Positions 1,623 through 24,527 of a stretch of 64,000 bases of DNA are shown one piece after another (position 1 is the first letter of the stretch; each line of letters begins with the position of its first letter). Location of the stretch: assembly GCF_027625475.1 (NCBI RefSeq), contig NZ_CP115174.1, positions 3,259,001 through 3,323,000 of the forward strand, read 5' to 3'. Below the pieces are notes generated by a model. It was not told the DNA's origin. It searched no databases and was given only the letters and a program-made list of their open reading frames with translations. The DNA is from Sphingomonas abietis. Its GTDB lineage: Bacteria > Pseudomonadota > Alphaproteobacteria > Sphingomonadales > Sphingomonadaceae. Made by a program: the position numbers and the translations under genes.

Positions 1623-1941
1623 GCGCGGCCGACAAGACATAATCACCACGCACGGAGCGTCACATCGGCATCGGCCGGAGCATCTTCGGGCGAATTGGGG
1701 GCGCGCGTTCGTCAGCACAGCCCCGGTCAACGACCGGCGTATCGGACGGAGTAATCGTCTGCACCTCTACCAATATCGCCGTACTGTTCAGTGGTCAGTG
1801 CGTACAGCTCGCCATCGTGGCTCTAACGATATTTTCATCGGCATCGCCGTCCGGCGTGCTGATCGCGCTCATCCAACCATAACCCCTTCGATCTTGGGCG
1901 GCAGGCCACGCGGATTTGGGAGCATGTGCATGTCCAAACGT
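1623..1941. other. Intergenic stretch without recognisable gene
   Basis: About 320 bp lie between the esterase remnant and the end of the minus-strand monooxygenase gene. Both strands show only short open frames without family motifs or ribosome-binding sites. It probably holds the transcription end of the minus-strand operon, but no clear hairpin plus T-run was seen. Confidence 0.4.
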
Positions 1942-3336
1942 CTATCCAGATTTTTCACACCGATGATTTTCGGCGCCAAAGCGCCGCTGGATGTTGGGCG
2001 GGAAGGCGTGTCTGGCCGGTGCCAGCGAATTGTTCCCGGAATGTGCTGGCCCTCCGATCGCCATCAGCCGGCCCCGGCGCTGCAATTCGGGGGTTAGCAG
2101 TCGCGTGAAATCAGGGAATGTGCGGCAGGGCATGACGCCAGGGATGTTGAATCCGTCTGCCCCACTTTCTTCGATCCAGCCTTCGAGCGCGTCGGCGACC
2201 GTCTTTGCGGACCCGGCCACGATCAATCCGCCGCCGGTGATGCCGATCGTCTCGGCAAACTGACGCAATGTCGGACGCGTCTCGATCGGCCCCCGCGTCG
2301 TTTCCTCGATCACGCCGCGAATGCCGTCGGTGTCGACACGGGCCAGCGGGCGGTCGAGATCGGCGGTAGAGAGGTCGTGCTGGATGATCGCGCTGTGGCG
2401 GGCAATCACGGCCTCGGCATCGATGTAGCAGCGATAGTCGTCGAGTTGGGCCTGTGCCGCGGCATCGGTCTCCGCGACGATCACTGTCGCCAACGGGAAG
2501 AAGCGGATGGCGTCGGCGCCTCGCCCCCGGCCGGCCGCTCGATCACGGACGTCTTCGATGGTCTCGCGTAGCGATCCTGTGTCGGGCGATACCAGAAAGA
2601 CCCCTTCGGCATGGGCGGCGGCGAACCCCCGGCCCGCTTCCGACGAGCCCGCCTGAAACAGCACCGGAGTGCGCTGCGGCGAGGGTTCGACAAGGAAGGC
2701 GCTCGGTACGCTGAAATTGGCACCCTTATGGCCGATAGCATGGACTTTCGCCGGGTCTGCAAAGAGGTTCCCACCAACATCCCGGCCGACCGCGTCATCC
2801 TCCCAGCTGCCTTCCCAGAGCTTGTAGACCACCTCCATATATTCTTCGGCGATCTGGTAACGATCGGCATGGCTATGCTGACGGTCACGGCCGAGATTGC
2901 GCGCAGCGCTGTCGAGCGCTGAGGTAACGATATTCCAGCCGATCCGTCCCCCGGTCAGGTGATCGAGCGAAGCCAATCGTCGCGCCAGCAGATAGGGCTG
3001 CTCGTAACTGGTCGAGAGCGTGATTGCGAAACCGAGCCGGCTGGTGACGGCCGCCATTGCGCTGACCAGCACCAGCGGGTCGATCGACGGGGTCTGGATA
3101 CCCGCCCGCAACGTCGCGTCGATGCGGCCCTGATACACGTCGAGCACGCCGAGCACGTCGGCGATGAAGAGGCCCGAGAAACCGCCTTCCTCCAGCGTCC
3201 GCGCGGTGTCGAGCCAGTAATCGAGCTGGTTGTAACGATGTGCCTGGCTGTCGGGGTGCCGCCACAACCCGATCGCGGTATGGCCAACCGTGGCCTGTTT
3301 GAAACCGTTGAGCAGGATGGGCTTGCGCGCTGTCAT
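1942..3336 (-). CDS. LLM-class flavin-dependent monooxygenase (NtaA/SnaA/DszA type), C-terminal frameshift
   Basis: The protein is a TIM-barrel FMNH2-dependent monooxygenase. It begins MTARKPILLNGF and shows the family blocks SGLFIADVLGVLDVY, LDHLTGGRIGWNIVTS, ADRYQIAEEYMEVVYKLWEGSW, LFQAGSSEAGR and ESGADGFNIPGV. Relatives cleave C-S or C-N bonds in sulfonates, dibenzothiophene sulfone, aminopolycarboxylates or streptogramins with reduced flavin from a partner reductase. The ATG at 3334-3336 overlaps the upstream sulfurtransferase stop (ATGA), implying translational coupling; I chose it over an upstream in-frame extension. After the RRGRL block the annotated frame loses family similarity, whereas another frame reads TFREQFAG and TRLPAQHPA to a stop at 1955, as in relatives. 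A single indel near 2040 therefore altered the last roughly 40 residues. The substrate is unknown. Confidence 0.85.
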   Translation of the reverse strand: MTARKPILLNGFKQATVGHTAIGLWRHPDSQAHRYNQLDYWLDTARTLEEGGFSGLFIADVLGVLDVYQGRIDATLRAGIQTPSIDPLVLVSAMAAVTSRLGFAITLSTSYEQPYLLARRLASLDHLTGGRIGWNIVTSALDSAARNLGRDRQHSHADRYQIAEEYMEVVYKLWEGSWEDDAVGRDVGGNLFADPAKVHAIGHKGANFSVPSAFLVEPSPQRTPVLFQAGSSEAGRGFAAAHAEGVFLVSPDTGSLRETIEDVRDRAAGRGRGADAIRFFPLATVIVAETDAAAQAQLDDYRCYIDAEAVIARHSAIIQHDLSTADLDRPLARVDTDGIRGVIEETTRGPIETRPTLRQFAETIGITGGGLIVAGSAKTVADALEGWIEESGADGFNIPGVMPCRTFPDFTRLLTPELQRRGRLMAIGGPAHSGNNSLAPARHAFPPNIQRRFGAENHRCEKSG

Positions 3337-4226
3337 GGATGATCCTTGGAAATGTGGGAGGTCGCCAGCGGTCGCGCGCCATCGGCACCCCACTCCTCCA
3401 GCGATCCGTCATAGATGCGAGCGCCCGCACCGCGTCCGATCACCACAAGGGCAAGCGCGATGACCGCGGCGGAAACCCCGCCGCCGCAATAGAGGATGGG
3501 CGCCGGCCCCCCGATCAGCGGCTGCAACCGCGCCGCGAGCAACGCTGGCGCCAAGAAGCGGCCATGCTCGTCCAGCAGGCTCGCCGCCGGGAGACTGAGA
3601 CTGCCGGGGATATGCCCCGATCGCCCGTAGAGCGCCGTCTCGCCCGAGAAGATTTCCACCGGCAGCGCGCAGACGAGAGGTCGCGACGGGGCCGTGCCGG
3701 CGACGATCGCAGCGACGTCTTCCAGATCCGCGAACAGCGGCTCAGGGGCGACGGACACCGACGAGACAGCGTTCGGACGCCGTGGCGCACCGGTTGCGAT
3801 CGGATGTCCGGCTGCACGCCAAGCCTCCCACCCGCCGTCCAGCACCGCCGCCGTCACGCCGATCGCGCGCAGCATCCACCACAGCCGCGCCGCCCACATG
3901 TTCAGGCCCCGGTCGTAGATCACCACCTGCCGATCTGCGCCGACACCAAGCGCCGCCAAAGCGCGCGCCAGCGCGTCCGGCGCAGGATTGGCGAAGTGGA
4001 ACGGTCTGGCGCCATCCGACAGCGCTTCGACCAGATCGGCAAAGCGGGCACCGGGAATATGGCCCGCCGCGATCTGCGCCAGCGAGAGGCGCGCGTCAGG
4101 CCCGGCCGTGCCCCAGCCGACATGGGCATCCAGCACGACGAGCGCGGGATCCGCCAGATGCGCCGCGAGCCAGTCCACCGAGACCAGCGGACCCGGCAAA
4201 GCGAGGCCATCGTCCCCCACAATCAT
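3333..4226 (-). CDS. Two-domain rhodanese (thiosulfate/3-mercaptopyruvate sulfurtransferase family)
   Basis: This 297-residue protein has tandem rhodanese domains. The N-terminal domain has HIPGARFADL and a YDRG loop lacking the catalytic cysteine, so it is structural. The C-terminal domain carries the active-site loop ILYCGGGVSAA with the persulfide-forming cysteine, similar to the CGxGVTA loop of mercaptopyruvate sulfurtransferases. There is no signal peptide, so it is cytosolic. The start (ATG at 4224-4226) overlaps the PnuC stop by 4 nt, and its own stop overlaps the monooxygenase ATG by 4 nt. It is a paralogue of the gene at 4813-5715. Its likely job is moving sulfane sulfur released from, or delivered to, the operon's substrate; the donor and acceptor are unknown. 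Confidence 0.88.
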   Translation of the reverse strand: MIVGDDGLALPGPLVSVDWLAAHLADPALVVLDAHVGWGTAGPDARLSLAQIAAGHIPGARFADLVEALSDGARPFHFANPAPDALARALAALGVGADRQVVIYDRGLNMWAARLWWMLRAIGVTAAVLDGGWEAWRAAGHPIATGAPRRPNAVSSVSVAPEPLFADLEDVAAIVAGTAPSRPLVCALPVEIFSGETALYGRSGHIPGSLSLPAASLLDEHGRFLAPALLAARLQPLIGGPAPILYCGGGVSAAVIALALVVIGRGAGARIYDGSLEEWGADGARPLATSHISKDHP

Positions 4227-4798
4227 CGCCCGTCCCGCCCGGCACGGGACACGACCTCCAGCCACCGCTGGTAGCCGATCACCGCGAGAACCGTCATCGC
4301 CGCATAGAGGCCTGCGGTCAGCCACAGCCCCTTGAACAGAAACATGCCGACATAGATAATGTCCACCGCGATCCAGAGCAGCCAGTTGGCGGTATAGCGG
4401 CGCGCAGTCCAATATTGCGCGACCAGGCTGAAGCTGCTCAGCGCGGAATCGACCCAGGGCAACGCGGCATCGGTATAGCGGCTGGTCAGCCAACCGATCG
4501 CCAGCGATCCCGCAGCGCCCAGGCCGAGCCCGATCGCCGCTGTGACGATCGAAAGCCGGTTCACCGTCACCGCCCCCTCGGCGTCGGCGCCGCGGCGCCA
4601 CGCGATCCAGCCGTAAACCATCGAAAGACCGAAGAGCAGTTGCAGCGTCATGTCGGCATAGAGACGAACATCGTGGAACAGTTTGAAATAACAAGCGCAG
4701 GCGATCAGGCCCAAGGGCCAGCACAGCATGCTGCGCCGGGCTGTCAGCCAGATCGTCAAGAAACTGATGATGACGGCGATGATTTCGAGAAGCGACAT
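4223..4798 (-). CDS. pnuC: PnuC-family vitamin transporter
   Basis: The 191-residue membrane protein has about seven hydrophobic segments and the PnuC signatures (SLLEIIAVIISFLTIWL near the N-terminus, QYWTARRYTANWLLWI and VDIIYVGMF in the second half). The WxxW-type NWLLW segment is the family's substrate-binding region. PnuC proteins are facilitators for nicotinamide riboside, and close subgroups carry thiamin (PnuT) or riboflavin (PnuX); subgroup cannot be decided by eye. The start at 4798 follows the upstream sulfurtransferase by 14 nt. Its place between two rhodaneses, in an operon with a TonB receptor, a small-molecule kinase and a THI5-like protein, suggests a thiamin- or thiazole-like cargo rather than NAD precursors. 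That substrate is inference. Confidence 0.88.
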   Translation of the reverse strand: MSLLEIIAVIISFLTIWLTARRSMLCWPLGLIACACYFKLFHDVRLYADMTLQLLFGLSMVYGWIAWRRGADAEGAVTVNRLSIVTAAIGLGLGAAGSLAIGWLTSRYTDAALPWVDSALSSFSLVAQYWTARRYTANWLLWIAVDIIYVGMFLFKGLWLTAGLYAAMTVLAVIGYQRWLEVVSRAGRDGR

Positions 4799-4812
4799 GA
4801 ACCAGTCGAACC

Positions 4813-5715
4813 TTATTGGGCGTCGGGCGCGCAGATCAGCGGCAGGTGGGTGACAGCCGACCATTCCTGGAGGCTGTTATCGTAGAGGGCGACATTATCG
4901 CGACCGGCGACGACGAGACCGAGCGCCAGATAGGCTGCGGAAATGCCGCCGCCACAATAAAGAATGAGCCGCTCGCGGCGCCCCGCCTCGGCGCCAAGAC
5001 GCGCCGAAAACAGGGCATCGAGCGTATCGGGGCTGGCCAGACGGCCGTCCGGCGTCTTCAGATCGCGTGCCGGCAGGTTGCGGCTGCCCGGAATGGCGCC
5101 GCGCCGCGCATAGCGCGTGGGCTGACGGCCGGCAAAGACGGCCTCGGACAGTGCGCAGACCAGATGATCGGACGATGCACCAGCCACGATCCGCTCGACC
5201 TCCTCACGCTCGACCCACGCCTCCGGCCACGACCGAGCCGCCGGCGGGGGCGAAGACGGCCAGCGCGCCGGAACGCCGGCCGCGCCGCTTTCGACAGGCG
5301 CCCCGATCGCCTGCCAGGCCTGCCAGCCACCATCGAGGACCATGACCGGAACCCCCGCCGCCCTGGCCATCCACCAGAGCCGGGCGGCCCAGAAGCCATC
5401 ACTTCGGTCATAGACGACCGTCGGCCGATCCGCCGTTACGCCGAGATCGGCGAGGCTGGCGCGCAGCCCGTCGGCTTCCGGATGGCGAAAGCTGGTGAGC
5501 GGATGGGGAATGCTGAGCGCGTCGACAAGATCGGCGTGCCGGGCGCCGGGGATATGCGCCGCCTCCCAGCCGGCGGCGCCACTCGCCACCCGGTAATCGC
5601 CATCGAAGCGCGGCGCCGGCAATTCCACGGTGGCGTCCAGCACCGTCACCGTGCCCAGATGCGCCGCCAGCCACGCGGCCGACACCAGCGGCAGCGGCCG
5701 TCCTTCGTGGCTCAT
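4813..5715 (-). CDS. Two-domain rhodanese (sulfurtransferase), second paralogue
   Basis: The 300-residue tandem rhodanese begins MSHEGRPLPLVSAAWLAAHL. The N-terminal domain has AHIPGARHADLVDAL and a YDRS loop without cysteine. The C-terminal domain has the active loop LILYCGGGISAAYLALGL. Alignment by eye with the protein at 3333-4226 is continuous, so the two arose by duplication. The ATG at 5713-5715 overlaps the kinase stop by 4 nt, which decides the start against a longer in-frame extension. No export signal is seen. Role: persulfide transfer in the cytosol; why the operon needs two copies is unknown (different acceptors, or a heterodimer, are possibilities). Confidence 0.88.
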   Translation of the reverse strand: MSHEGRPLPLVSAAWLAAHLGTVTVLDATVELPAPRFDGDYRVASGAAGWEAAHIPGARHADLVDALSIPHPLTSFRHPEADGLRASLADLGVTADRPTVVYDRSDGFWAARLWWMARAAGVPVMVLDGGWQAWQAIGAPVESGAAGVPARWPSSPPPAARSWPEAWVEREEVERIVAGASSDHLVCALSEAVFAGRQPTRYARRGAIPGSRNLPARDLKTPDGRLASPDTLDALFSARLGAEAGRRERLILYCGGGISAAYLALGLVVAGRDNVALYDNSLQEWSAVTHLPLICAPDAQ

Positions 5716-6854
5716 GCCGCCACCGCCGATTCCAGACCGGCCAGCAGGGCGCGGCCCGGCGCAGTCCGGAACCATTCCGCATGACCCAGCAGATAGCCAT
5801 ACCACGCCAGATCGGCGTCAGCCTCGCGTGCCTGCACGCCGTAGAAATAGTCGATTTCGGACAGCGCGAATTCGATATGAACAAGCGGCAGCAGGCCGAT
5901 CAGGATCGCGCGGCTCGCGGGATCGAGCGGGCGGACATCGGCATAGCCCTGCAACAGCGATCGGGCCAGATCGGGCTCGGCGATGTCGACGCCGCCGCCC
6001 GCATCCAGATCCAGCCACCGGATCGCGGTCCGCTCCAGCGCCGTCGCCAGATCGGCAAACGCACAGGTCCGGTCCGCGAGCCCGAAATCGAGGATCCGGG
6101 CCACCGTGCCCCCGGCGGACCAGAGCAGATTGGAGGGGTGCCAGTCATTGTGGGTCCAGAGCGCGCGCTGCGCGACGAGCGCCGCGCCGACCGGTCCAGC
6201 ATCGTGCGCCGCAAACAGTCGCGACAAAGCGTGGCGCCACGGCTTCCCGGCAAGATAGGCCGACAGCGCCGGCCGGGCCTCGACATAGGATTCCGCGGCC
6301 GCGAGCGGATCGCGCGCCGGCAGGATGGTCAGGCTCGTGACCAGTGGCTGGACCGGGCGTGCCGGTTGGTCAAACCCCTCGGCGGCATCATGCAGCCGCG
6401 CCAGGGAGGCCCCGGCCGCTTCGGCATGGCCGGCGGTGAGGAAGGGCGTCCAGGACTGGCGATCGCGGTACAGATCGAGCCCTTCCGCCTTGCGGTGAAC
6501 CTCCCAGGTCCAGTCGCCAATGCCGATCGCCGTCTCGCCGCTGTCGGTTTGCAGAATTTCAGCGACCGGCTGCCCGCGCGCCGCGAGATGGCGAATGAAG
6601 CGATGCTCGGCGGCCAGATTGGTCGGGGTCCGCAGCCGGCTCTGGTGGCGTTTGACGAAGATGTCGCCGCTCTCGGTGCGGGCGAGAGCCGCCGACGAGA
6701 ATGGGCGGGGCGAATGCCAGTCGAGACGATCGAAACGGCCCGCCTGCGGGAACAGGGCAAGCACCGTCGCGGCCTCCGCATCGGAAATCGCCGGCCAGCG
6801 CGGCGCTTCCAGATCGCTGCCCATGCCATGCACCAGATAGGGCACCTCGTGCAT
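5712..6854 (-). CDS. APH/choline-kinase-like small-molecule phosphotransferase
   Basis: The 380-residue cytosolic protein has the aminoglycoside-phosphotransferase fold. It shows an N-lobe lysine in FVKRHQSRL, the catalytic loop THNDWHPSNLLW (Brenner motif HxDxxxxN), and the magnesium motif ILDFGLAD. APH-family kinases phosphorylate aminoglycosides, choline, homoserine, methylthioribose and thiamin (ThiK). The start at 6854 is 5 nt after the upstream stop, and the stop overlaps the next ATG by 4 nt. In an operon with a PnuC transporter, the kinase probably traps the imported compound by phosphorylation, as ThiK or NrtR-linked kinases do. An antibiotic-resistance role is less likely because of context. 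Substrate not determinable from sequence. Confidence 0.8.
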   Translation of the reverse strand: MHEVPYLVHGMGSDLEAPRWPAISDAEAATVLALFPQAGRFDRLDWHSPRPFSSAALARTESGDIFVKRHQSRLRTPTNLAAEHRFIRHLAARGQPVAEILQTDSGETAIGIGDWTWEVHRKAEGLDLYRDRQSWTPFLTAGHAEAAGASLARLHDAAEGFDQPARPVQPLVTSLTILPARDPLAAAESYVEARPALSAYLAGKPWRHALSRLFAAHDAGPVGAALVAQRALWTHNDWHPSNLLWSAGGTVARILDFGLADRTCAFADLATALERTAIRWLDLDAGGGVDIAEPDLARSLLQGYADVRPLDPASRAILIGLLPLVHIEFALSEIDYFYGVQAREADADLAWYGYLLGHAEWFRTAPGRALLAGLESAVAA

Positions 6855-6859
6855 CGCCG

Positions 6860-7768
6860 TCAGTCCAAAAAGGCGTTGGTGGTGGCCGTTTCCCAAATCG
6901 CCGCATCCGCCAGGATGCCGTGGCTGGCGAGCCATGCCGCGTAAGGCGCCAATTTGTCGGCTCGCTGGACGCCCCAGCGGCCGTCCTCCAGCCAGGTCGA
7001 GGCGATCAGATCGAGCGATTCCGCCAGCATGGCCTGCGGGAAATAGGGAATCACCGCCTCGTAGAGCGGCAACGCGGCCCGTGGCTCGGCGGCGGCAACC
7101 AGATAGCCTTCGCGGGTCGCCCGGACGAAGGCGCGGGTTAGTTCGGGATCGTCCGCCGCGAAGGCTTCGCGCGTGCCGAGCAGGTAGGAGTGATAAGGCG
7201 GCGCCCCGATCTCGTCGACCGGCCACTGGATGCGATCGCCGGCGGGCACCTTGCTCGGCAACAGCGCTTCCCACGCCCAATAGCTGCCGAAGCTCGCATC
7301 GGCGATGCCATCGCGCAGCGCCTCGGGATTGAGTTCCCGCGCGCCGCTGTCGACGATCGTGACGCGATCCGCATCGCCGCCGTCGCTCGTCACCAGATGG
7401 CGGATCATGGCGAGCCCACGCGGCGTCGGATTGAGCGCCACGCGCCGCCCGGCAAGATCGCGCGGCCGGGCGATGCCGCGCCCGGCGATCGCCTGCACCA
7501 TCTCCAGCGCCCGATGATTGATCGCCGCAATCCCGATCAACGCCTCGCCGCGATCGCGGCGGACGAGCAGGCGGTTGCTCGGGAAGATCGCGAAATCCAC
7601 GTCGCCGCGGGCCAGATATTGCAGCGCATCGCCCCAGGCCGGATCGGCGACGCGAAACTCGACGGCAAGGCCCGCCGCTTCATAGAAGCCCCGGTCGCGC
7701 GCCAGATAGAAGCCTGCCGAATTCGTCCAGGGGTGAAAATATTCGAGCATGACGGTCACACGGCGCAT
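6860..7768 (-). CDS. NMT1/THI5-like periplasmic-binding-fold protein without signal peptide
   Basis: The 302-residue protein matches the NMT1/THI5-like ABC substrate-binding fold: HPWTNSAGFYLARDRGFYEAAGL at the N-terminus (split lobe 1), ALQYLARGDVDFAIFPSN, the hinge region RPRDLAGRRVALN, and a C-terminal helical lobe. Family members bind thiamin pyrimidine precursors (ThiY), sulfonates or nitrate, and the eukaryotic THI5 branch makes HMP phosphate in the cytosol. I chose the ATG at 7768 because a GGAG lies 8 nt upstream; a GTG at 7777 also exists. No signal peptide, lipobox or ABC permease/ATPase gene is present nearby, which is unusual for a binding protein. No THI5-like cysteine-rich CCCFC motif is seen, so HMP synthase activity is not supported. 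Confidence 0.75.
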   Translation of the reverse strand: MRRVTVMLEYFHPWTNSAGFYLARDRGFYEAAGLAVEFRVADPAWGDALQYLARGDVDFAIFPSNRLLVRRDRGEALIGIAAINHRALEMVQAIAGRGIARPRDLAGRRVALNPTPRGLAMIRHLVTSDGGDADRVTIVDSGARELNPEALRDGIADASFGSYWAWEALLPSKVPAGDRIQWPVDEIGAPPYHSYLLGTREAFAADDPELTRAFVRATREGYLVAAAEPRAALPLYEAVIPYFPQAMLAESLDLIASTWLEDGRWGVQRADKLAPYAAWLASHGILADAAIWETATTNAFLD

Positions 7769-7782
7769 CGATGCCACTCCGA

Positions 7783-10161
7783 TCAGAACTGGCGCGCCAG
7801 CGTCACGACGAACGCCCGGCCGCTGCCGATATAATAAGCCGGCGCCGATCCCGAGATGAGCGTGCCGTTGACGCCCACGGTATCGCGCGCGTTGGTCGAG
7901 ATCGCCTCCACGCCGGACAGGACGTGCGGATTGGTGACGTTCAGGACATTGAGCCGGAGGTCGGTCCGCTTGCCGTCGATCCAGTCGCCCAGATGCGCGC
8001 CGATCGAGAGATCGAGCGTGGCATAACCGCGAATGCGCTCGTCATTGGTGAAGGTCGCATATTGGCGGCCGATATATTTCAAGGCAAAGCTGCCGAACAG
8101 ACGCTTGCGGTCATAGGTGCCGCCGAGACCGAACTGGTGACTTGGGCTCTCGACCGCCTGCTTGCCCCGCGTCGGCAGATAATCGCCATCGACCGGAAGA
8201 TTGTCATCCAGCCGGGCGTGGAGATATTCGGCGGAGGCGTAGAAGCTCACCCCGGCGATCGGGCGCCAGTCGATTTCGCCGTCGAGCCCATAGGACGTCT
8301 GTCGCCCGGCGTTGATCGTCGAATTGACCAGCGCGCCGTTCAGATCGACGATCGTCGCCAATTGCCTGTTGCGGAAATTATAGTGGAAGGCGGTCAGCGA
8401 CCCGGAGAGCGTCGGCCCGGTGTAGCGATAGCCGACCTCTTCCGTGATCGAATATTCGTTTTTGAGCTTCGTCGTCCCCTGCCCGTACAATTCTCCGCCA
8501 TAATAGCTGTCGTAAAGCGTCACCTCGTCAGGCGCGCGGAAATTGGTGGTGACATTGGCGAAAATCTGCTGACGATCATCGATCCGATAATGCGCCGCCG
8601 CGCGCGGCAACGCTGCGAAACTGTCGAAATGCACCTTGGTTTGCGGCCCGGGCAGATAATTCTCCCCGTGGTGGAGCACGTCCACGCCCTTGAAGCCGAT
8701 ATCCACCGTCAGACGGGGCGACAGCGCGATGTGGTCGGCCAGAAAGAAGCCCTTCACCACCGTGATCGTGCGGTAATTGAGATCGGCGAGCAAGCGCCCG
8801 TCCGCCGTGCGGATCGCATCATCGGCATAGCCCCAGATGTCCGTCGGCCGGCCGCGATCGTCGATCGAGGTGAAGCTCTCGCTGTCATGGTCCGTGCCAT
8901 AATCCAGCCACAGGCCGGCGGTGAGCACATGCTTGCCGAGATGGTAGGTCAGCTTGGTGACGTCGCCGGTCCGCATCTGGTTGCCGATGTAATTGCCGGC
9001 AACAGTCGCGGTGCCGTCCACCGCACCCGGGAGCGAGAGTGGCTGGGTCAGTGCCTCGGTGCCGAGATAATTGCCGGTCGTGCTCAATTGCGTGCCGTAA
9101 GGCGAGTTGCCATAACCGAACTGTAGATAATATGTCGTGTCGAAGCTAAACCGGTCATCGATCTTGAGATGCACGGGTGCTGACACATATTCATTGCGAA
9201 ACGGGCTACGATAGAGGCGCCAGTAATTGGTGTCGCCGGCGGTGTAGCGCTTGTCATAGTTGAACGATCGCCCATCGGCCTGCCAATCACTCAACGTCGG
9301 ACTCGGATAGCTTGAGGTCTTTGCGGCATTGAATGAAAAGGCTAGGCTCGCGCGATTTTCATCGCCCCATTCCTTCATCAGTTTGGCGTCGATATGCTGG
9401 CGTTCATCATAGCCGGCTCCCCGCCAATTTTCGGCGCGGTTATTGGAATAGGACAGAAAGCCACGAACACCAGTCTGACCGATCTCGCCGCTGTCGGCGC
9501 GAACGAACACACGTCTCTCGTTATAGGAGCCGAGCGACCCGTCGACGGCCACACCGAAGTTGTGCCGTGGGTCATCGAGGCTCAGTGACAGCAGCCCGCC
9601 AGCACCGTTGACGATCGGCGAATCGATGTCGATCGAGCCTTGGCTCAGCGCGATCTGTTTCACATTCTCGGCATCCGCGAATTGGGACGGATAGGCGTAA
9701 TAATAGCCGATATCGTTTTGCGGGGCGCCCTCCATGAGCACGCCGATCTCGTCCTGGCCAAGGCCGCGCAAGGTCAGGCTGCTGCTCGTCGACAGGCCGA
9801 ACGGATCGCTCGACGCGACATTGGCTCCAGGCAGCAGGCTGACGAGCTGGAATGCATTGAGCGTCGGAGCCTGTTTCTCGATGAAGGCCGTAGCGATCGT
9901 GCTGGTCGACTTGGGCGCACTCTGAGGTGGTAAAAGCCCCTCCGGATCGGCATGACCGATCACCTGAATCGTCCCGTTTCCCGGATCGGCCACCGACAGG
10001 CTGCCAGATGAATCCTGCGCCAAGGCCATCCCAGGCAGGACCGCGGCGGATCCGGCCAAAAGACCCGCCGAAAGCACCGCGCGGCCAGGTTTCCACTGAA
10101 CGAATGGGCCAGACGCGGCCAGGATGATCGGGCCCACGGAACGATGCTTGGCGCTTGGCAT
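7783..10161 (-). CDS. TonB-dependent outer-membrane receptor (first gene of the sulfur/vitamin operon)
   Basis: The 792-residue receptor has a signal peptide ending near ALAQ, a plug domain (STIATAFIEKQAPTLNAFQLVSLLPG, then TLRGLGQDEIGVLMEG) and a 22-strand barrel ending in the typical aromatic VVTLARQF. It belongs to the ligand-gated group that imports siderophores, vitamins or other nutrients with TonB/ExbBD energy. It is the promoter-proximal gene of a minus-strand run whose next ORF starts 14 nt after its stop. No TPP or cobalamin riboswitch was recognised in the 120-nt leader; the divergent LysR gene is the likely regulator. Ligand is unknown; the rest of the operon argues for a small sulfur heterocycle or vitamin rather than iron. 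Confidence 0.9.
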   Translation of the reverse strand: MPSAKHRSVGPIILAASGPFVQWKPGRAVLSAGLLAGSAAVLPGMALAQDSSGSLSVADPGNGTIQVIGHADPEGLLPPQSAPKSTSTIATAFIEKQAPTLNAFQLVSLLPGANVASSDPFGLSTSSSLTLRGLGQDEIGVLMEGAPQNDIGYYYAYPSQFADAENVKQIALSQGSIDIDSPIVNGAGGLLSLSLDDPRHNFGVAVDGSLGSYNERRVFVRADSGEIGQTGVRGFLSYSNNRAENWRGAGYDERQHIDAKLMKEWGDENRASLAFSFNAAKTSSYPSPTLSDWQADGRSFNYDKRYTAGDTNYWRLYRSPFRNEYVSAPVHLKIDDRFSFDTTYYLQFGYGNSPYGTQLSTTGNYLGTEALTQPLSLPGAVDGTATVAGNYIGNQMRTGDVTKLTYHLGKHVLTAGLWLDYGTDHDSESFTSIDDRGRPTDIWGYADDAIRTADGRLLADLNYRTITVVKGFFLADHIALSPRLTVDIGFKGVDVLHHGENYLPGPQTKVHFDSFAALPRAAAHYRIDDRQQIFANVTTNFRAPDEVTLYDSYYGGELYGQGTTKLKNEYSITEEVGYRYTGPTLSGSLTAFHYNFRNRQLATIVDLNGALVNSTINAGRQTSYGLDGEIDWRPIAGVSFYASAEYLHARLDDNLPVDGDYLPTRGKQAVESPSHQFGLGGTYDRKRLFGSFALKYIGRQYATFTNDERIRGYATLDLSIGAHLGDWIDGKRTDLRLNVLNVTNPHVLSGVEAISTNARDTVGVNGTLISGSAPAYYIGSGRAFVVTLARQF

Positions 10162-10212
10162 GACGTGACGACAACCTCAAAAATCTGAATTTCGGCGGGC
10201 CCACCCCGTTTC

Positions 10213-10229
10213 CCTACCAGGTAGGTAGG
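10213..10229. promoter_or_regulatory. Candidate LysR operator between divergent genes
   Basis: The inverted repeat CCTACC-AGGTA-GGTAGG contains a T-N11-A core (TACC...GGTA), the usual LysR-type binding form. It lies between the receptor start (10161) and the LysR start (10285), about 50 nt from each. Position and symmetry make it the best operator candidate. This is inference from pattern. Confidence 0.5.
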
Positions 10230-10284
10230 AAATCAAGGATGGCCGGTCCATTGACAAATAGTTTCGGAGCGATAACCAAACGGA

Positions 10285-11172
10285 ATGAACATGACAGCTC
10301 TGCGTAGTTTTGTAGCCTTAGCGGAATGCTTGCACTTCGGTGAAGCGGCGCGTCGGCTAAATCTCACCCAGCCAGCCCTGACCAAGCAGATTCGACGCCT
10401 CGAGGACGATATGGGCGCCACGCTCTTCGAGCGTGGCGGCCGAGGTAGTAAACTGACGAGTTTTGGTGAGGTTTTTTTAAGTGAGGCGGCTCCCCTTGTC
10501 GAACATGCCCGTGCCGTATGGGAGCGTGGGCGGCGCGCGGCACGCGGCGAAGCGGGTCGCCTGGCCATCGGCTTCAGCTACTCGACGGTCGACATCGTCT
10601 CCCGCGCTATGCCGCAATTCCGTCACCGGTATCCTGATGTCGAAATCGAACTCGAAGATCTGTCATCAGCCACGCAGATGGATCGTATTCTTGCAAAGAC
10701 ACTTCATCTTGGGTTCGTAAGGCTCCCAAGCCGGGCTGGGCTTCGATTCGAGCCAATCGTAACCGATCGCTTGGCACTCGTAATTCCAACGAGCATGGCC
10801 GATCTCATCACAACTTTCGATCCCGCCTACCTTGCGGATCTTCCTTTCGTACTTCTCCACCGGGATCGCGCGCCAGGACTGCATGACTTCGTAATGCGTT
10901 TCTGCGCAGGTCACGGAATTCAGCCACGAAAAATTCATTACACGAATGAGACACTGATCGCGTTGTCATTGGTCGCGGCTGAAGTCGGGGTGGCTTTGCT
11001 CCACGAATCAGTTCTGATGGGGCTCTGTGAAGGTGTTGTTGTTCATCAGATCGTCGGCCGTGATGCGCAATGGGATGTAGGAATCAGTTGGGCGAATGAG
11101 GATGCAAATCCTCTAACTCAGAAATTCGTAGACCTCGTAATATCCGAAGTGAAAAATCTGCCGACAACCTAA
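10285..11172 (+). CDS. LysR-family transcriptional regulator
   Basis: The 295-residue protein begins MNMTALRSFVALAECLHFGEAARRLNLTQPALTKQ, a typical N-terminal winged helix-turn-helix, with RRLEDDMGATLFERGG wing residues. The effector domain runs from about residue 90 (ARGEAGRLAIGFSYSTVDIVSRAM) to the end. It is transcribed away from the seven-gene operon, the classic layout for a LysR activator of its divergent neighbour. Local base composition is lower in GC than the operon (many A/T-rich codons), hinting at a different origin or weaker selection. The inducer is not predictable, but may be the operon's substrate or O-acetylserine-like sulfur signal. Confidence 0.9.
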   Translation: MNMTALRSFVALAECLHFGEAARRLNLTQPALTKQIRRLEDDMGATLFERGGRGSKLTSFGEVFLSEAAPLVEHARAVWERGRRAARGEAGRLAIGFSYSTVDIVSRAMPQFRHRYPDVEIELEDLSSATQMDRILAKTLHLGFVRLPSRAGLRFEPIVTDRLALVIPTSMADLITTFDPAYLADLPFVLLHRDRAPGLHDFVMRFCAGHGIQPRKIHYTNETLIALSLVAAEVGVALLHESVLMGLCEGVVVHQIVGRDAQWDVGISWANEDANPLTQKFVDLVISEVKNLPTT

Positions 11173-11429
11173 CAGTAATTATTGCGTTCATGTCATGAAT
11201 CAAACATATACGTATATTGTCGTTGCGATCTGAGACGTTTTTATGATGACATTGGCATTATCCGACCTGACAGAGCCGATCCCGGGTTCATCATAGGCGA
11301 TATTCTGATCCATGCTTTTTAGGCCGATCGGAGGTCGGCATGACATGATCTTATTGCCGGCCTCGATCGTCAAAAGCGCGGTGATCGACATCAAACCATC
11401 CAGCGAGTGCGATGAGCCGCTGTCGCCAG

Positions 11430-11639: not shown

Positions 11640-12604
11640 TTAGGCGGCGAGCTTGCGGTGCTGCAAGCGTCGATGTTCGATGGTCTGTCGCTTGATCCTT
11701 TCACGCTGTTTGATGATGGCGGGCGCCCTGCCGAAGTAGGCGTCGGCGGGTGTCACGTTGGCCAGGCTCTCGTGGTAGCGCCGGTTGTTGTAGTGCTCGA
11801 CGAAGGCCTCGATCTGGGCCTCGAGGTCGCCAGGCAGGAAGTAGTTTTCGAGCAGGATGCGGTTCTTCAGGGTCTGGTGCCAGCGCTCGATCTTGCCCTG
11901 GGTCTGCGGATGCATCGGAGCGCCGCGCACATGGCTCATCTTCCGGGCCTCGATATATTCCGCCAGTTCGCCGGCGATGTAGCTGGGGCCGTTGTCGCTG
12001 AGCAGTCTGGGCTTGTGCAACACCGTGGCGCTGTCGCAGCCGGAAGCCGCCAGGGCGAGGTCCAGCGTGTCGGTCACGTCCTCGGCGCGCATGTTGGTGC
12101 ACAGCTTCCAGGCGATGATGTAGCGCGAGAAGTCGTCGAGCACGGTCGACAGGTACATCCAGCCCCACCCGATGATCTTGAAGTAGGTGAAGTCGGTCTG
12201 CCACATCTCGTTCGGCCGGGTGGTTTTGGTGTGGAACGCATCGGCCGCCTTGATCACGACGTAGGCCGGGCTGGTGATCAGGTCATGGGCCTTGAGCAGC
12301 CGGTAGACCGTCGATTCCGACAGGAAGTAGCGCTGCTCGTCGGTGAACCGCACGGCCAACTCGCGGGGGCTGAGATCGGTCGCTTCCAGCGCCAGCTCGA
12401 CGATCCGGTCGTGGATCTCGGCCGGGATACGGTTCCACACCCTGCTCGGCGCGGATGGCCGATCTTCCAGCGCTTCCGGCCCGCCCTCGCGATAGCGGTC
12501 ATACCACCGATAGAACGTCCGGCGGGCGATGCCGAGCTTGTCCAGCGTGCGCTTGACCGCAGATGGCGCACTCCTGAAGGGCCGCTGCTTGTACCCTGAC
12601 CGGT
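11640..12604 (-). pseudogene. IS3-type transposase (OrfB, rve domain), 5'-truncated
   Basis: The DDE integrase core is intact: D in WQTDFTY, D in LLSDNGPSY and E in GKIERWHQTL, followed by VEHYNNRRYHESL. Upstream, the frame stays open through RRTFYRWYDRYREGG and PFRSAPSAVKRTLDKLG to about 12604, and then joins unrelated integrase sequence. OrfA and the expected right end are missing. No matching terminal inverted repeats or target duplication could be found, so this is a stranded remnant rather than a complete element. It abuts the degenerate recombinase at 12650-13165. Whether the remaining protein is made is doubtful, because there is no good start codon with a ribosome-binding site. Confidence 0.75.
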
Positions 12605-13302: not shown

Positions 13303-15402
13303 ATGTTCGATCTCGTGCCGCGGGCCATTCCCATGAACCTTTTTCGTGCGGGTCATCGAAGACCGCTCCGGTCGTACGGTCTGCTGGCGTCTACCGTGCT
13401 GGCGGCATGGTCGCTCGGGGCTGTTCCTATCCACGCCTCTGCGCTCCCGCTCAACGAAAACGACATCGCCACCGAACGCTTCGGCAACGACGCTCCTTGG
13501 TACGAGGACAATATCCCCTTCTTCGAAGCGTCGGATCCGCTGCTGACCCGCATCTGGTATTATCGCTGGGAGCTCTTCCGCGCGCACCAGCGCGATCTGG
13601 GCGCACGGGGCTATATCAGCACCGAGTTCCTCGGCGATGTCGGCTGGCAGCGGGAACCCTATGCCAGCCTGAACGATGCCAGCGCCTTCCACATCGCCGA
13701 AGGCCGATGGCTGCGCGACCGGCGCTATACCGACGACTATGTGAATTTCCTCTATGAAGGCGGCGGCAACGACCGGCATTTCAGCGAGGGCATCGCCGGC
13801 GCGGTGTGGGGCCGGTATCTCGCTGATGGAGACGCTATGGGGGCGACCCGCCATCTCGATGCGATGCGCCACGTCTACAATCTGTGGGACGATCATTTCG
13901 ACTTCGATCGCGGGCTTTATTGGATCGAGCCGCTGCTCGATGCGACCGAATATACGATCTCGTCGATCGACGCGTCGGGCGGCAAGGACGGCTTCCGCGG
14001 CGGCGATGCCTTCCGCCCGTCGATCAACGCCTACATGTTCGACAATGCCCTCGCGATCTCCCGGATCGCCGCGCTGACCGGCGACACCGCTACCGCTACC
14101 GATTACGACGCACGCGCCGTCGATCTGAAAGCCCATGTCGAGGCCGACCTGTGGAGCCCGACGCTCGATCATTTCGTCGATCGCTATCAGAAATCGACCG
14201 ACTTCGTGCGGGCATGGCAGCCGATCCGGGGCCGCGAACTGGTCGGCTATCTGCCCTGGACGGTCGACATGGTAACCGGCGATCAGCGCTATGCGGCCGC
14301 CTGGCGGCATTCCCTCGCCCCGACCGAACTGGGCGGTGCCAAGGGTTTGCGCACTGCTGAACCCTCCTACCCTTATTATATGCGACAATATCGCTACGAC
14401 GCGGCGACGGGCGCGCGCGAATGCCAGTGGAACGGCCCGGCCTGGCCCTTTCAGACGACGCAGGCCCTCACCGGCATGGCAAACCTGATCGAAGGGCCTG
14501 CTCAATCGATCGTCACCCGCTCGGACTATGTGCGCTTGCTCCGCCAATATGCCGCGCAGCATATGCTGGGCGACCATCCCGACCTGCAGGAGGATTACGA
14601 CGCGGACAGCGGCCGGCCGATCGTCGGCCTGGCCCGCAGCCATCATTACTTCCACTCGGGCTTCGATGATCTCGTCGTGACCGGCCTGGCAGGGCTCCGC
14701 CCCCGCGCTGACGACAATCTGGAGGTCGCGCCGCTGATCCCGGCCGATCCGGCCGATCCTGAATATCTGCGCTGGTTCGCGCTGCAGGACCTGCCTTATC
14801 ACGGGCATCTGGTGACCATCCTGTGGGATGCCGACGGCACCCGTTACGGCCATGGCGCCGGGCTCAGCCTGCTCGTCGACAATGTGCCCGTCGCCCACAC
14901 GGCACGGCCGGAACGCATCGTCGTGCCGCTGGCCCGCAAGGCACCGCCGCCGATCGCGCGACCGATCGACCTCGCCGTCAATGTGGTGCGATCCGCCTAT
15001 CCCAGCGGGTCGGCCTCGGTGAATGCGGAGCCGGAGGCGCTGCACGGCGCGCTGGACGGCCGCGTCTGGTTCTTCCCCGAAACTCCCAATGGCTGGCCGA
15101 CGACAGGCTCGGCGCACGACTGGGACTGGTTCGCCGTCGACTTCGGCGCACCGACCCGCCTCCATAGGGCCGAACTCGCCTTCTACGTGGAGGGCCAGGC
15201 GTTCGCGGTGCCGTCTGCCTACCGGCTGCAGATCGAGACCAGGCGGGGCTGGACAGATGTACCGGCCGCCACGCTTCCAGCCGCGGTGGCGAACGGCGTC
15301 ACCCGTATCGAGTGGCCGGCGACGACGGGCCGCCGCCTGCGCCTGCTGGTGAAACGGCCGGCGCAGGGCGCGGTGCGGCTGGTAGAGCTCAAGGCGTTCT
15401 GA
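13303..15402 (+). CDS. Secreted (alpha/alpha)6 glycoside hydrolase, MGH1-like, with C-terminal carbohydrate-binding-like domain
   Basis: The 699-residue protein has a signal peptide (cleavage likely after IHASA near residue 47). It carries a six-hairpin glycosidase domain of the MGH1/GH63-like type (residues about 70-500; blocks WELFRAHQRDLGARGY, ATEYTISSIDASGGKDGFRG and ECQWNGPAWPFQTTQAL). A beta-sandwich and a galactose-binding-like module follow (about 560-699, HDWDWFAVDFGAPTRL). A GGGAGG lies 10 nt before the ATG at 13303, favouring it over a later ATG at 13333. It converges on the GH51 gene across a bidirectional terminator. Relatives act on arabinose- or mannose-containing oligosaccharides in polysaccharide loci; exact linkage is unknown. 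Long open frames on the opposite strand are composition shadows. Confidence 0.8.
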   Translation: MFDLVPRAIPMNLFRAGHRRPLRSYGLLASTVLAAWSLGAVPIHASALPLNENDIATERFGNDAPWYEDNIPFFEASDPLLTRIWYYRWELFRAHQRDLGARGYISTEFLGDVGWQREPYASLNDASAFHIAEGRWLRDRRYTDDYVNFLYEGGGNDRHFSEGIAGAVWGRYLADGDAMGATRHLDAMRHVYNLWDDHFDFDRGLYWIEPLLDATEYTISSIDASGGKDGFRGGDAFRPSINAYMFDNALAISRIAALTGDTATATDYDARAVDLKAHVEADLWSPTLDHFVDRYQKSTDFVRAWQPIRGRELVGYLPWTVDMVTGDQRYAAAWRHSLAPTELGGAKGLRTAEPSYPYYMRQYRYDAATGARECQWNGPAWPFQTTQALTGMANLIEGPAQSIVTRSDYVRLLRQYAAQHMLGDHPDLQEDYDADSGRPIVGLARSHHYFHSGFDDLVVTGLAGLRPRADDNLEVAPLIPADPADPEYLRWFALQDLPYHGHLVTILWDADGTRYGHGAGLSLLVDNVPVAHTARPERIVVPLARKAPPPIARPIDLAVNVVRSAYPSGSASVNAEPEALHGALDGRVWFFPETPNGWPTTGSAHDWDWFAVDFGAPTRLHRAELAFYVEGQAFAVPSAYRLQIETRRGWTDVPAATLPAAVANGVTRIEWPATTGRRLRLLVKRPAQGAVRLVELKAF

Positions 15403-15416
15403 GGCGAGCACCCTTG

Positions 15417-15449
15417 CTAAAACCCTCATCCTCGAGGGGAGGGTTTTAG
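15417..15449. terminator. Bidirectional terminator hairpin
   Basis: Perfect 11-bp arms CTAAAACCCTC and GAGGGTTTTAG flank an 11-nt loop. It sits between the convergent glycosidase (ends 15402) and GH51 gene (ends 15495). A/T-rich stem ends supply U-runs in both directions. Confidence 0.8.
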
Positions 15450-15494
15450 TAAGAAGCGGGTTTCAAGCGGCAGGCGGTTCGGAAGAGCCCCTGC

Positions 15495-17060
15495 TCACTT
15501 CAGCCCCAGCACCACCACCGATTTCGCCGGCAGCGTGACGGTCAGCGTATCGCCGGCCAGCTGCGCCCCATCGAACGGCTGCGGTCGCACGGTGTCCGGC
15601 CGATCGAAGCTGTTCAAGGCGTGCATGTCGGGCGCGGTAATGATCTGGCCGTTCGCCGTCGTCGCCCCGACGCCGGCAATCTTGACGCTCACCGTCATCG
15701 GGCGGTTCGGATTGGCATTGGCCAGCGCGACATGAACCTGTCCTGCGACATCCTTCACCGCTGACGCGCTGACCGCAGGGATCGCGAACTCATCCTTGTC
15801 GTACCAGGGCGAATGGAGGTCAATCGGGATCACCGTCGCGTCCTGCCAGGGCTTGTAAAGATCGAACACCCAATAGGTCGGGGTGCGGACCATCTTCGGC
15901 CCGTCGGTCAGCAGCATCGCCTGCAATACGTTCACCATCTGCGCGATCGACGTCATCTTCACGCGATCGGCGTGCTTGGCAAAGATGTTGAGGTTGATCG
16001 CCGCGACCAGCGCGTCGCGCAGCGTGTTCTGCTGGTAGAGGAAGCCCGGATGGGTGCCGGGCTCCACATCGTACCAGGTGCCCCACTCGTCGACCACCAG
16101 CCACACGCGCTTGGCGGGATCATATTTGTCCATGATCTCGCCATGCCTGGTGAGCAACTCGTCCATCTTCCAGGTGTTGGCGAGCGTCGAGGCCCAATGA
16201 TGCTCGTCAAACTGGGTGGCCGAGCCCTTGTCCTCCCATTTGCCGGGGAAGGTGTAATAATGCAGCGAAAGACCGTCGATCTGCGTGCCGGCCTCCCGCA
16301 TCATCACCTCGGTCCAGTGATAATCGTCGATATTGGGGCCGCTGGCGATCTTCATGATCTTCTGGTCGGCAGGCGCTTTCACGAAGGTCGCATAGCGCCG
16401 CGTCAGATCGGCGGCATAGTCGGGCCGCATGTTGCCGCCGCAGCCCCACAGCTCGTTGCCGATACCGAAATAAGGCAGTTTCCACGCTGCCGGGTGGCCG
16501 TTGGCGGCGCGTTCCCTAGCCAGCGTCGAGCCGCTCGGCGAAGTCATATACTCCACCCACTCCGCCATCTCGGCCGGGCTGGCGTCGCCGACATTGCCGG
16601 CGACATAGGGCTCTGCGCCGAGCAACGCCATGAAGCCCATATATTCATGGGTCCCGAAGCTGTTGGGTTCGGTCACGCCGCCCCAGTGCGTGTTGATGCT
16701 GACCTTGCGGGCCTTCGCCGGCCCGATGCCGTCGCGCCAGTGATATTCGTCGGCGAAGCAGCCGCCCGGCCAGCGCACGACCGGCACCTTAATCTCGCGC
16801 AACGCCTCGATCACGTCCTTGCGATAGCCGTCGATGTTGGGAATGGGCGAGCCCTTGCCGACCCATATGCCACCGTAGATGCCATGGCCGAGATGTTCGG
16901 CGAATTGCCCGAAAATCTGTCGATCGTAGCGGGGGCCGACTTGGTCCGCATGGAGGGTCAGTTCGGCCGCTCCCGCCTGCGCGTTCAGCGTCGCCGGCAT
17001 CGCGGCTCCGATCATCAGAGCGCACACTACATGTCTGAGCGATCGCGCGAGACTTGGCAT
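15495..17060 (-). CDS. Secreted alpha-L-arabinofuranosidase, GH51
   Basis: The 521-residue protein has a signal peptide to about TLNAQA. The GH51 (beta/alpha)8 core shows FAEHLGHGIYGGIWVG, VVRWPGGCFADEYHW, the acid/base glutamate in GIGNELWGCGG and the nucleophile glutamate in LVVDEWGTWYD, followed by a C-terminal beta-sandwich. Function: release of terminal alpha-L-arabinofuranosyl units from arabinan, arabinoxylan or arabinogalactan oligosaccharides. GGGGAGG lies just before the ATG at 17058-17060. Export, presumably to the periplasm, is notable because many GH51 enzymes are cytosolic. It is divergent from the GH27 gene and belongs to the arabinan locus. Confidence 0.93.
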   Translation of the reverse strand: MPSLARSLRHVVCALMIGAAMPATLNAQAGAAELTLHADQVGPRYDRQIFGQFAEHLGHGIYGGIWVGKGSPIPNIDGYRKDVIEALREIKVPVVRWPGGCFADEYHWRDGIGPAKARKVSINTHWGGVTEPNSFGTHEYMGFMALLGAEPYVAGNVGDASPAEMAEWVEYMTSPSGSTLARERAANGHPAAWKLPYFGIGNELWGCGGNMRPDYAADLTRRYATFVKAPADQKIMKIASGPNIDDYHWTEVMMREAGTQIDGLSLHYYTFPGKWEDKGSATQFDEHHWASTLANTWKMDELLTRHGEIMDKYDPAKRVWLVVDEWGTWYDVEPGTHPGFLYQQNTLRDALVAAINLNIFAKHADRVKMTSIAQMVNVLQAMLLTDGPKMVRTPTYWVFDLYKPWQDATVIPIDLHSPWYDKDEFAIPAVSASAVKDVAGQVHVALANANPNRPMTVSVKIAGVGATTANGQIITAPDMHALNSFDRPDTVRPQPFDGAQLAGDTLTVTLPAKSVVVLGLK

Positions 17061-17513
17061 CGTCCTCCCCTTCTTTTTTGTCAGACATAACAGCTACAGC
17101 CGGAATTTATCACAATCAAGCGGCCGTCATGATCTGGACAGTACTCGACGCGAGTCGATAAGTGGCGAGAGAGCAAAAACGAGAGGACATGGCGCTCGTC
17201 AAAGATCGAACCGCTCACACATCGGTGTCGCTCCAGGTCGATCGGTGGCCATGGGCGGCAGGGAGCGGCCGCGCGCGATCTTGGCACCGGCCACCGTCAT
17301 CGGCCTCACCAGCATAGCGCCAGCCTCTTTAGGACCCTTTCATTTGCCCAACAATTGTAGGCTTCACGAGAGGCGCCTGGCGACGCGATGCAAATCTCGC
17401 GCGCTGCGCGGTGATCAAGCTGGCACACGTCGCCTTGCTCGACATGCAAGGCTCGAACGGTTTTCTCACCGGCCGGAACGCTCGAGACCACGACCGAGGA
17501 CAGGGCAATCGTA
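17061..17513. other. Divergent intergenic region between GH51 and GH27 genes
   Basis: About 450 bp that should hold both promoters. A small symmetric element ACTCGACGCGAGT lies near 17143-17157 and could be an operator. The right half (17306-17513) has a minus-strand frame with a signal-peptide-like start that overlaps the GH27 start; it has no recognised family and I do not call it. No transcription factor gene is present in the locus. Confidence 0.4.
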
Positions 17514-18851: not shown

Positions 18852-19272
18852 CTGGCCATCGTCTTGACTGGCCATTGTGGACGGCCATTGCCGACGGACG
18901 AACGAAGCCGAGCCTACCAGACGCGCCGTCGACCTCGCTGCAGCGCAGCAATCATTTCAAAGAAGAACTGATTCGCTTTGAAATAGCATCAGCCACGTCA
19001 TCCGTTCCATAATACTGCGTTCACGCAGACTGTCCGGTCATGCGAGCCGACCCGGACTACTCGGTCGACGCGACAGCTTGCCGTTCAGCTGGAAACCGGA
19101 GGATCCCAGGCGAATCCGACCCGGCTTCTCACATTGATTATACGCTTATTTCTCCATCCCAAGATGCTGCTTGGCAAAGCTCTTGCCAGCACCATCCGGG
19201 TTCGATAGGAATTGTCTGAGTAAATCACATCGATGCCGCAGATAGCGGTGCGAATTATAGGGAGGGGATGGA
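18852..19272. other. Intergenic region upstream of the arabinan TonB receptor
   Basis: About 420 bp without a gene. It contains the inverted repeat at 18954-18984 and an A/T-richer stretch around 19120-19270 that probably includes the receptor promoter. No riboswitch fold was recognised. Confidence 0.4.
18954..18984. repeat. Inverted repeat, possible operator or terminator
   Basis: Exact 9-bp arms ATTTCAAAG and CTTTGAAAT are separated by 13 nt. It follows the GH27 gene by about 100 bp and precedes the receptor by about 290 bp. A/T-rich arms with this spacing could bind a dimeric regulator; without a T-run it is a weak terminator. Confidence 0.45.
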
Positions 19273-21912: not shown

Positions 21913-21926
21913 TCGGGAGCCGTTCG

Positions 21927-22964: not shown

Positions 22965-22966
22965 TC

Positions 22967-22988
22967 CGCGGGCGATCGAGCGCCCGCG
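22967..22988 (+). terminator. Terminator hairpin after the arabinanase gene
   Basis: Arms CGCGGGCG and CGCCCGCG enclose a 6-nt loop, 2 nt after the stop codon, followed by the A/T-rich ATTATAAT. Confidence 0.65.
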
Positions 22989-23001
22989 ATTATAATGCCG
23001 C

Positions 23002-23076
23002 ATGTCGGAAGTCGACGATGCCACCGCGGGCAATGATCGTCCCTTCCTCATGGCCCTCAGTCCGCCAAGGATCTGA
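23002..23076 (+). pseudogene. N-terminal fragment, probably of the interrupted MFS transporter
   Basis: A 24-residue frame (MSEVDDATAGNDRPFLMALS, then PPRI) ends 30 nt before the IS701 insertion. Its polar start and FLMALS block resemble the N-terminus of NupG-like MFS sugar transporters, whose next conserved part appears just beyond the insertion at 24528. Some 25 codons between them are lost or frameshifted. The assignment rests on position and weak similarity. Confidence 0.45.
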
Positions 23077-23109
23077 TAGCAGCGCCGTTATTGATCTGAC
23101 CTCCTCTAG

Positions 23110-23123
23110 CATTACAGTTGCAT
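23110..23123. repeat. IS701 terminal inverted repeat, left
   Basis: CATTACAGTTGCAT, exact complement of the copy at 24510-24523. The transposase stop codon lies inside it. CTAG directly outside is the target duplication. Confidence 0.9.
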
Positions 23124-24478: not shown

Positions 24479-24509
24479 GGAGACCTATTGATTCAGAGTT
24501 CCGCTTGAT

Positions 24510-24523
24510 ATGCAACTGTAATG
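24510..24523. repeat. IS701 terminal inverted repeat, right
   Basis: ATGCAACTGTAATG, exact complement of the left end. Its last three bases form an ATG in frame with the downstream transporter fragment. Confidence 0.9.
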
Positions 24524-24527
24524 CTAG

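Follow-up and report, generated by a model that had tools for sequence, protein, structure and literature searches.

Seven tightly packed genes of Sphingomonas abietis raise the question of which small molecule their products bring into the cell and what becomes of it there. They lie in a stretch of 64,000 nt (positions 3,259,001 to 3,323,000 of contig NZ_CP115174.1, from a single-contig genome of 4.43 Mb), hereafter the window, whose own numbering is used throughout. A first-pass annotation had listed a TonB receptor, PnuC, a kinase, double rhodaneses and a luciferase-like monooxygenase (LLM) and had read them as a route that imports, phosphorylates and desulfurizes a small heterocyclic compound. 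When the genes were assigned with Pfam and NCBIfam, these families were as claimed, but the list left out the most diagnostic gene of the operon, which encodes a cytosolic protein with the NMT1/THI5 fold of the substrate-binding proteins (SBPs). This gene, here called the SBP gene, defines the cassette and makes thiamin the leading substrate. On balance, we favor an operon whose products take up thiamin or one of its vitamers and break it down; the uptake and phosphorylation of the earlier reading are thereby kept, and the SBP-fold protein, of which it made no use, is given a part. The genes are as follows.

7783..10161, minus strand: TonB-dependent outer-membrane receptor (PF00593 and PF07715)
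6860..7768, minus strand: cytosolic NMT1/THI5-fold protein (SBP-fold protein; PF09084), proposed thiamin(-phosphate)-acting enzyme
5712..6854, minus strand: APH-fold small-molecule kinase (PF01636), proposed thiamin kinase
4813..5715, minus strand: double rhodanese 1 (PF00581 twice), core partner of the SBP gene
4223..4798, minus strand: PnuC-family inner-membrane transporter (PF04973 and tree), PnuT-like by context
3333..4226, minus strand: double rhodanese 2 (47% identity with rhodanese 1)
1942..3336, minus strand: NtaA/DmoA-type flavin mononucleotide monooxygenase, the LLM (TIGR03860)
10285..11172, plus strand: divergent LysR-type regulator (PF00126 and PF03466)

The seven-gene minus-strand run and the divergent LysR gene were confirmed at these coordinates, as were three 4-nt stop/start overlaps (5712-5715, 4223-4226 and 3333-3336) and gaps of 5 to 14 nt (14, 5 and 14 nt; an alternative upstream GTG at 7777 for the SBP gene would shorten the first of these from 14 to 5 nt). 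The LysR gene is separated from the operon by 123 nt. A consensus scan of positions 1700-11300, compared with shuffles, yielded 10 promoter-like sites (shuffle mean 2.5) and 2 terminator-like sites (shuffle mean 6.3). The minus strand has a single site of each kind, the promoter-like one at 8207-8179 within the receptor gene and the terminator-like one, which is weak, at 4713-4698 within pnuC. By this consensus scan, no convincing internal promoter divides the seven genes, consistent with a single run. In the LLM, the family match stops at residue 424 of 464, and the reading frame continues for another 40 residues (1942-2080).

Conservation of the cassette

Do these genes belong together outside this genome? 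Species genomes were scanned for relatives with the SBP family alignment, and the loci obtained, at least 48, were treated as a sample. Neighbors were counted as tblastn matches of at least 70 bits (for kinases, E 1e-6) no more than 8 kb from the SBP gene, and the counts below refer to the 48 listed loci. The cassette neighborhood recurs in at least 48 loci of Pseudomonadota, Actinomycetota and Bacillota, with gene co-occurrence kept across these three phyla, and the gene arrangement is therefore more than chance. A double rhodanese lies near the SBP gene in 45 loci. The kinase is of the APH type in 30 loci and of the PRK06547 type in 15 (both in none, neither in 3), and the importer is a TonB receptor with PnuC in 22, an ATP-binding cassette (ABC) transporter with a periplasmic SBP in 18 and a YkoE-type energy-coupling factor (ECF) transporter in 4 (none in 4, two in none). 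The three kinds of importer are mutually unrelated, and likewise the two kinds of kinase. Where an APH kinase is present, it directly follows the SBP gene, within 90 bases, in 29 of 30 loci. Two Acetobacter loci (L039 and L045) match the window in both the divergent LysR gene and the order receptor-SBP-kinase-rhodanese-PnuC; in Acetobacter persici (L039:12126-12964), the cassette rhodanese matches as two pieces in different frames, perhaps because the gene is broken or because of a sequencing error.

Loci without an importer are L014 (a 4.6-kb contig), L037 (which reaches the contig end) and the Ralstonia loci L038 and L048, where the SBP gene stands alone. The two Ralstonia loci also account, with L029 (which reaches the contig end), for those without a kinase and, with L042, for those without a rhodanese. 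In both (L048:9860-12109 and L038:9941-12109), a LysR-like gene is nearby, and the next gene in L048 carries a VOC/glyoxalase domain. An LLM of at least 50% identity was found in 11 loci and a weaker one in 8; in a Kineosporia locus (L028:13694-18027), four luciferase-like monooxygenase open reading frames (ORFs) follow one another near the cassette. In 8 loci there is also an e(P4)-related acid phosphatase (171 bits, under the model cut-off of 216; PF03767 passes), and a periplasmic phosphatase of this kind would fit the dephosphorylation of a vitamer ahead of PnuC. The regulators beside the cassette are of the LysR, GntR/UTRA (17 loci) or MerR type, the last read by eye and not by hidden Markov model (HMM).

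The reverse test, made in 398 Pseudomonadota genomes, gave the same association. The SBP gene is present in 5 of them. The rhodanese query matches 116 genomes at E 1e-25, and its strong matches to rhodanese 1 (at least 252 bits) fall in exactly the same 5 genomes, the best rhodanese elsewhere reaching 143 bits and 38% identity. Four of the 5 genomes come from one family (f49) and hence are not independent.

Probable substrate and import

What, then, does the cassette act on? The SBP-fold protein, the product of the second gene, has 302 aa. No signal peptide was found in it, and no permease or ATPase gene adjoins its own in the window, which does not fit the binding protein of an ABC importer; in the 18 loci with such an importer, that role is filled by a separate periplasmic SBP. 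An SBP fold without a signal peptide is also what THI5 has. In structure comparison (VIA-align), the model of the protein was closest to thiamin-bound 4nmy and to 3ix1, which binds N-formyl-4-amino-5-aminomethyl-2-methylpyrimidine (FAMP). All 49 cytosolic members have R66, N84, E89, R117, E145, H193 and Y195, and 48 of them have R144; each of these residues occurs in at most 4 of the 19 rows counted as importing SBPs, two of which have cytosolic-like residues, may be misassigned and were retained. The SBP family alignment A1 (26 sequences) shows no Cys that is invariant or nearly so.

The importers that replace one another around this core point to thiamin. In a Paenibacillus locus, the periplasmic SBP is a strong match to thiamin-bound 4nmy (E 2.3e-134, 451 bits). 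The ECF-type loci hold a PF09819/ATPase/CbiQ trio (Pfam for L046; PF09819 for L041), which we read as YkoEDC, a system named in the discussion of thiamin transporters in the accessible part of PMC5613172. In the window, receptor, PnuC-family transporter and kinase stand together as they do in thiamin uptake gene sets controlled by thiamin pyrophosphate (TPP); no TPP riboswitch, the other mark of such sets, was found in the window.

Further evidence comes from the kinase, which is present in 14 of the 398 genomes, including all 5 with the SBP gene. In the 9 others, it is accompanied by the receptor and PnuC (six seen in longer loci, as well as G387, G584 and G669), and in 6 of these 9 sister sets a TPP riboswitch lies inside the set, either between kinase and receptor (G383, G387, G503, G584 and G669) or no more than 0.3 kb ahead of the aligned part of the receptor (G598). 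Relatives of the kinase thus adjoin TPP riboswitches. In a PnuC tree of 59 rows (midpoint root; L113 dropped for its over-long frame, and three PnuCs present twice under two ids), the window PnuC groups with PnuCs from TPP-riboswitch sets at a support of 93/85, which is below star level, and E. coli PnuC falls in a separate six-row group (100/100). The window PnuC is therefore not firmly placed with nicotinamide riboside transporters. Such a placement, like a lack of conserved neighbors or a run divided by separate promoters, had been named as an outcome that would undo the earlier reading, and none of the three was observed. Overall, import and phosphorylation of a thiamin-type compound are well supported by the replacement of importers, the riboswitch-bearing sister sets and the PnuC tree. 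Thiamin or a close vitamer is very probably the substrate, because three unrelated kinds of importer interchange around one core and the sister sets carry TPP riboswitches; it is the simplest common answer.

The same genome holds a second receptor-kinase-PnuC set at ∼4.114-4.118 Mb (L092:5750-9853; about 4113749-4117852), downstream of a pirin gene, whose receptor, kinase and PnuC are 76%, 67% and 71% identical to those of the window. Because the PnuC and kinase trees both pair the window copies with the second-set copies at full support, the import genes of the operon seem to be kin to this resident set rather than to the PnuCs that accompany the SBP gene elsewhere. Among 10 genomes of the genus and 296 sampled from the order, only this one gave a match to the SBP gene (9 and 295 others negative), and the cassette is therefore probably a recent gain; the operon was probably acquired by horizontal transfer. 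On the LysR side of the operon, an integrase-core gene (11640-12440) and a DDE transposase gene (23264-24478) are in line with recent gain. Plasmid origin was rejected, as a search of 72,556 plasmid records (E 1e-40) gave no SBP match. The region 13303-25282 also holds carbohydrate-use genes (an MGH1-like glycoside hydrolase, a melibiase-type hydrolase, a TonB receptor, GH43 and a nucleoside/major facilitator superfamily symporter).

Proposed breakdown and its alternatives

We next consider what would happen to the imported compound. Both rhodaneses of the window have a catalytic-type Cys in the CGxG loop (YCGGGIS and YCGGGVS). Rhodanese 1 carries the motifs CAL, TRYxRRG and CGGGIS; rhodanese 2 shares CAL and CGGGV but is without TRYxRRG. 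Among the 45 cassette rhodanese ORFs, the loop CGGG[IV][SA]A is found in 38, CAL in place of DAR in 32 and [ST]RYxRRG in 35, where two ORFs that end before the catalytic loop (L007 and one L039 fragment) were scored as misses. In 3-mercaptopyruvate sulfurtransferase, the arginine of DAR binds the carboxylate of the substrate. Because CAL replaces DAR, the motifs fit sulfur transfer from an α-mercapto compound without a carboxylate, and the arginine-rich motif could offer a binding site for the phosphate group that the kinase would add. Hydrolysis of ring-opened thiamin yields FAMP and 5-hydroxy-3-mercaptopentan-2-one, which is such an α-mercapto compound. The LLM matches TIGR03860 well above its cut-off (486.9 versus 279.7 bits), and the desulfurization in the first-pass annotation is what the chemistry of rhodaneses and LLMs would suggest.

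From these elements, we infer the direction of the pathway (breakdown), the bond that would be cut and the order of the steps. The TonB receptor and the PnuT-like PnuC would import thiamin or a vitamer, and the APH-fold kinase would phosphorylate it, probably on the hydroxyethyl group to give thiamin phosphate, so that the vitamer would be trapped. The cytosolic THI5-fold protein, acting as an enzyme and not as a transport protein, would bind the phosphorylated ring-opened thiamin and hydrolyze it to FAMP and 3-mercapto-5-phosphooxypentan-2-one. The rhodanese resembling 3-mercaptopyruvate sulfurtransferase would take the sulfur of this α-mercaptoketone as a persulfide; rhodanese 2 and the LLM could carry out further C-S, C-N or C-C steps, with the LLM oxidizing the remnants. 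This exact scheme (kinase, SBP hydrolysis, rhodanese, LLM) is put forward tentatively and is rather more likely to be wrong than right in some step.

Several observations weigh against the thiamin pathway. The SBP-fold protein may only bind its ligand. The kinase has no detectable homology to E. coli ThiK (no HMM match; best pairwise E 0.024 over 55 residues), and membership of that family was rejected; its model is closest to N-acetylhexosamine and homoserine kinases (VIA-align), and the resemblance to sugar, homoserine and choline kinases would allow other substrates. The 50 entries listed for the kinase model include no thiamin kinase, which proves nothing on substrate. Three of the sister sets (G460, G535 and G605) are without a TPP riboswitch match and have their TPP riboswitches elsewhere, and the second set of the S. 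abietis genome also gave no match. PnuC passes the nicotinamide riboside HMM, and the Pfam name of the YkoE-type subunit is cobalt permease. Finally, five Bacillota rhodaneses have the ordinary DAR/DSR and CG[SA]GVT motifs, the closer LLM is confined to 11 loci, and the Ralstonia loci and L042 keep the SBP gene without the partners named above.

The alternative that survives best is repair or salvage, in which damaged thiamin or an antivitamin (oxidized thiamin, methoxythiamin) would be taken up and either the usable pyrimidine returned or the poison removed. Importers for thiamin-like compounds and an SBP fold related to FAMP- and thiamin-binding proteins would suit it, and the accessible part of PMC12345177 describes the release of thiamin antivitamins by Microcystis. 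Nonetheless, we consider it unlikely: the window and the 44 of 48 cassette loci that were scanned (all except L036, L037, L038 and L048) yielded no TPP riboswitch, ThiG is kept in 5 of 5 SBP genomes tested, this one included, and a search of this genome for TenA, the known route from aminopyrimidines, did not find it. In the S. abietis genome, a single TPP riboswitch was found, ahead of a ThiC gene, and each of the four other SBP-bearing genomes also has a single one, away from the set. Because the cassette is without a TPP riboswitch, has regulators of other types nearby and occurs in genomes that keep ThiG, we lean toward substrate-driven breakdown rather than vitamin supply. Supply is the essence of a second alternative, in which receptor, PnuC and kinase provide thiamin, its storage or sensing falls to the SBP-fold protein, and the rhodaneses and the LLM are merely co-encoded. 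That receptor-kinase-PnuC sets exist without the SBP gene, most of them with a TPP riboswitch, and that the LLM is so often missing speak for it; we nevertheless hold it to be improbable, given that the rhodanese stays with the SBP gene whatever the importer or kinase and that the strong rhodanese subfamily coincides with the SBP genomes. Biosynthesis, with the SBP-fold protein making the thiamin pyrimidine like THI5 and the rhodanese giving the thiazole sulfur, is very hard to sustain: THI5 depends on Lys62, which carries pyridoxal phosphate, His66 and a CCCFC motif, and these residues are missing, so that THI5-type synthesis was rejected; furthermore, this genome has ThiC and ThiG, and synthesis needs neither importers nor kinase. 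Import of nicotinamide riboside or another nucleoside-like compound, for which the match of PnuC to TIGR01528 speaks (NMN/NR transporter PnuC; 79.8 bits versus a cut-off of 42.45, from a model that does not separate substrates), is just as remote and is disfavored by the PnuC tree, the thiamin-type ABC and ECF importers that replace PnuC in relatives and the riboswitches of the sister sets.

How thiamin is made, taken up and salvaged is well charted. In the open-licence literature, we found neither this gene set nor any thiamin-consuming bacterial operon described; subscription papers lie mostly outside that literature, and a prior description is possible. A dedicated THI5-fold hydrolase of opened thiamin phosphate, paired with a new rhodanese subfamily that would act as a mercaptoketone sulfurtransferase, might constitute a pathway of vitamin B1 catabolism in three phyla and an enzymatic source of FAMP, a proposal that we regard as speculative. 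According to the accessible part of PMC10470507, FAMP is a vitamer measured in seawater and is formed in the dark by cultures of heterotrophic bacteria, in the authors' view likely by oxidation; the cassette offers a concrete enzyme candidate for its formation as an alternative to oxidation. If true, the proposal would extend the SBP fold to a further enzyme activity, give sulfurtransferases a new substrate and supply a genetic marker by which vitamin B1 consumers could be recognized in communities. The pathway could now be tested directly.

Comparison with known systems

The import part is closest to OMthi-PnuT-Tnr3, the thiamin uptake genes of Bacteroides thetaiotaomicron, which are under TPP riboswitch control (PMC5613172, accessible part). 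Both have a TonB receptor, a PnuC-family transporter and a thiamin-phosphorylating enzyme (in our case a proposed one), and riboswitch control is common to the Bacteroides genes and the sister sets. The window differs in that its kinase is APH-fold and not Tnr3, in the additional presence of the SBP-fold protein, the rhodaneses and the LLM, and in the absence of a riboswitch.

Unlike ThiY (3ix1) and 4nmy, the SBP-fold protein of the window has neither a signal peptide nor an adjoining permease or ATPase, and it has an Arg/Glu/His set that is rare in the importing SBPs of sister loci. It differs from the THI5/NMT1 hydroxymethylpyrimidine phosphate synthase in that the catalytic Lys62, His66 and CCCFC are not conserved in its family. 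Like thiaminases I and II (TenA), the cassette would act on thiamin. Thiaminase I is itself an SBP-fold enzyme with a conserved nucleophilic Cys, but that Cys has no conserved counterpart in the SBP family alignment. Lastly, the cassette rhodaneses share with 3-mercaptopyruvate sulfurtransferase the double rhodanese with a catalytic-type Cys in the CGxG loop. The window pair scores below the cut-off of its model NF008557 (114.4 and 143.6 versus 250 bits), and in the cassette rhodaneses DAR is changed to CAL and the CGSGVT-type loop to CGGG[IV][SA]A; the proposed rhodanese step would nevertheless be of the reaction type that 3-mercaptopyruvate sulfurtransferase carries out on mercaptopyruvate.

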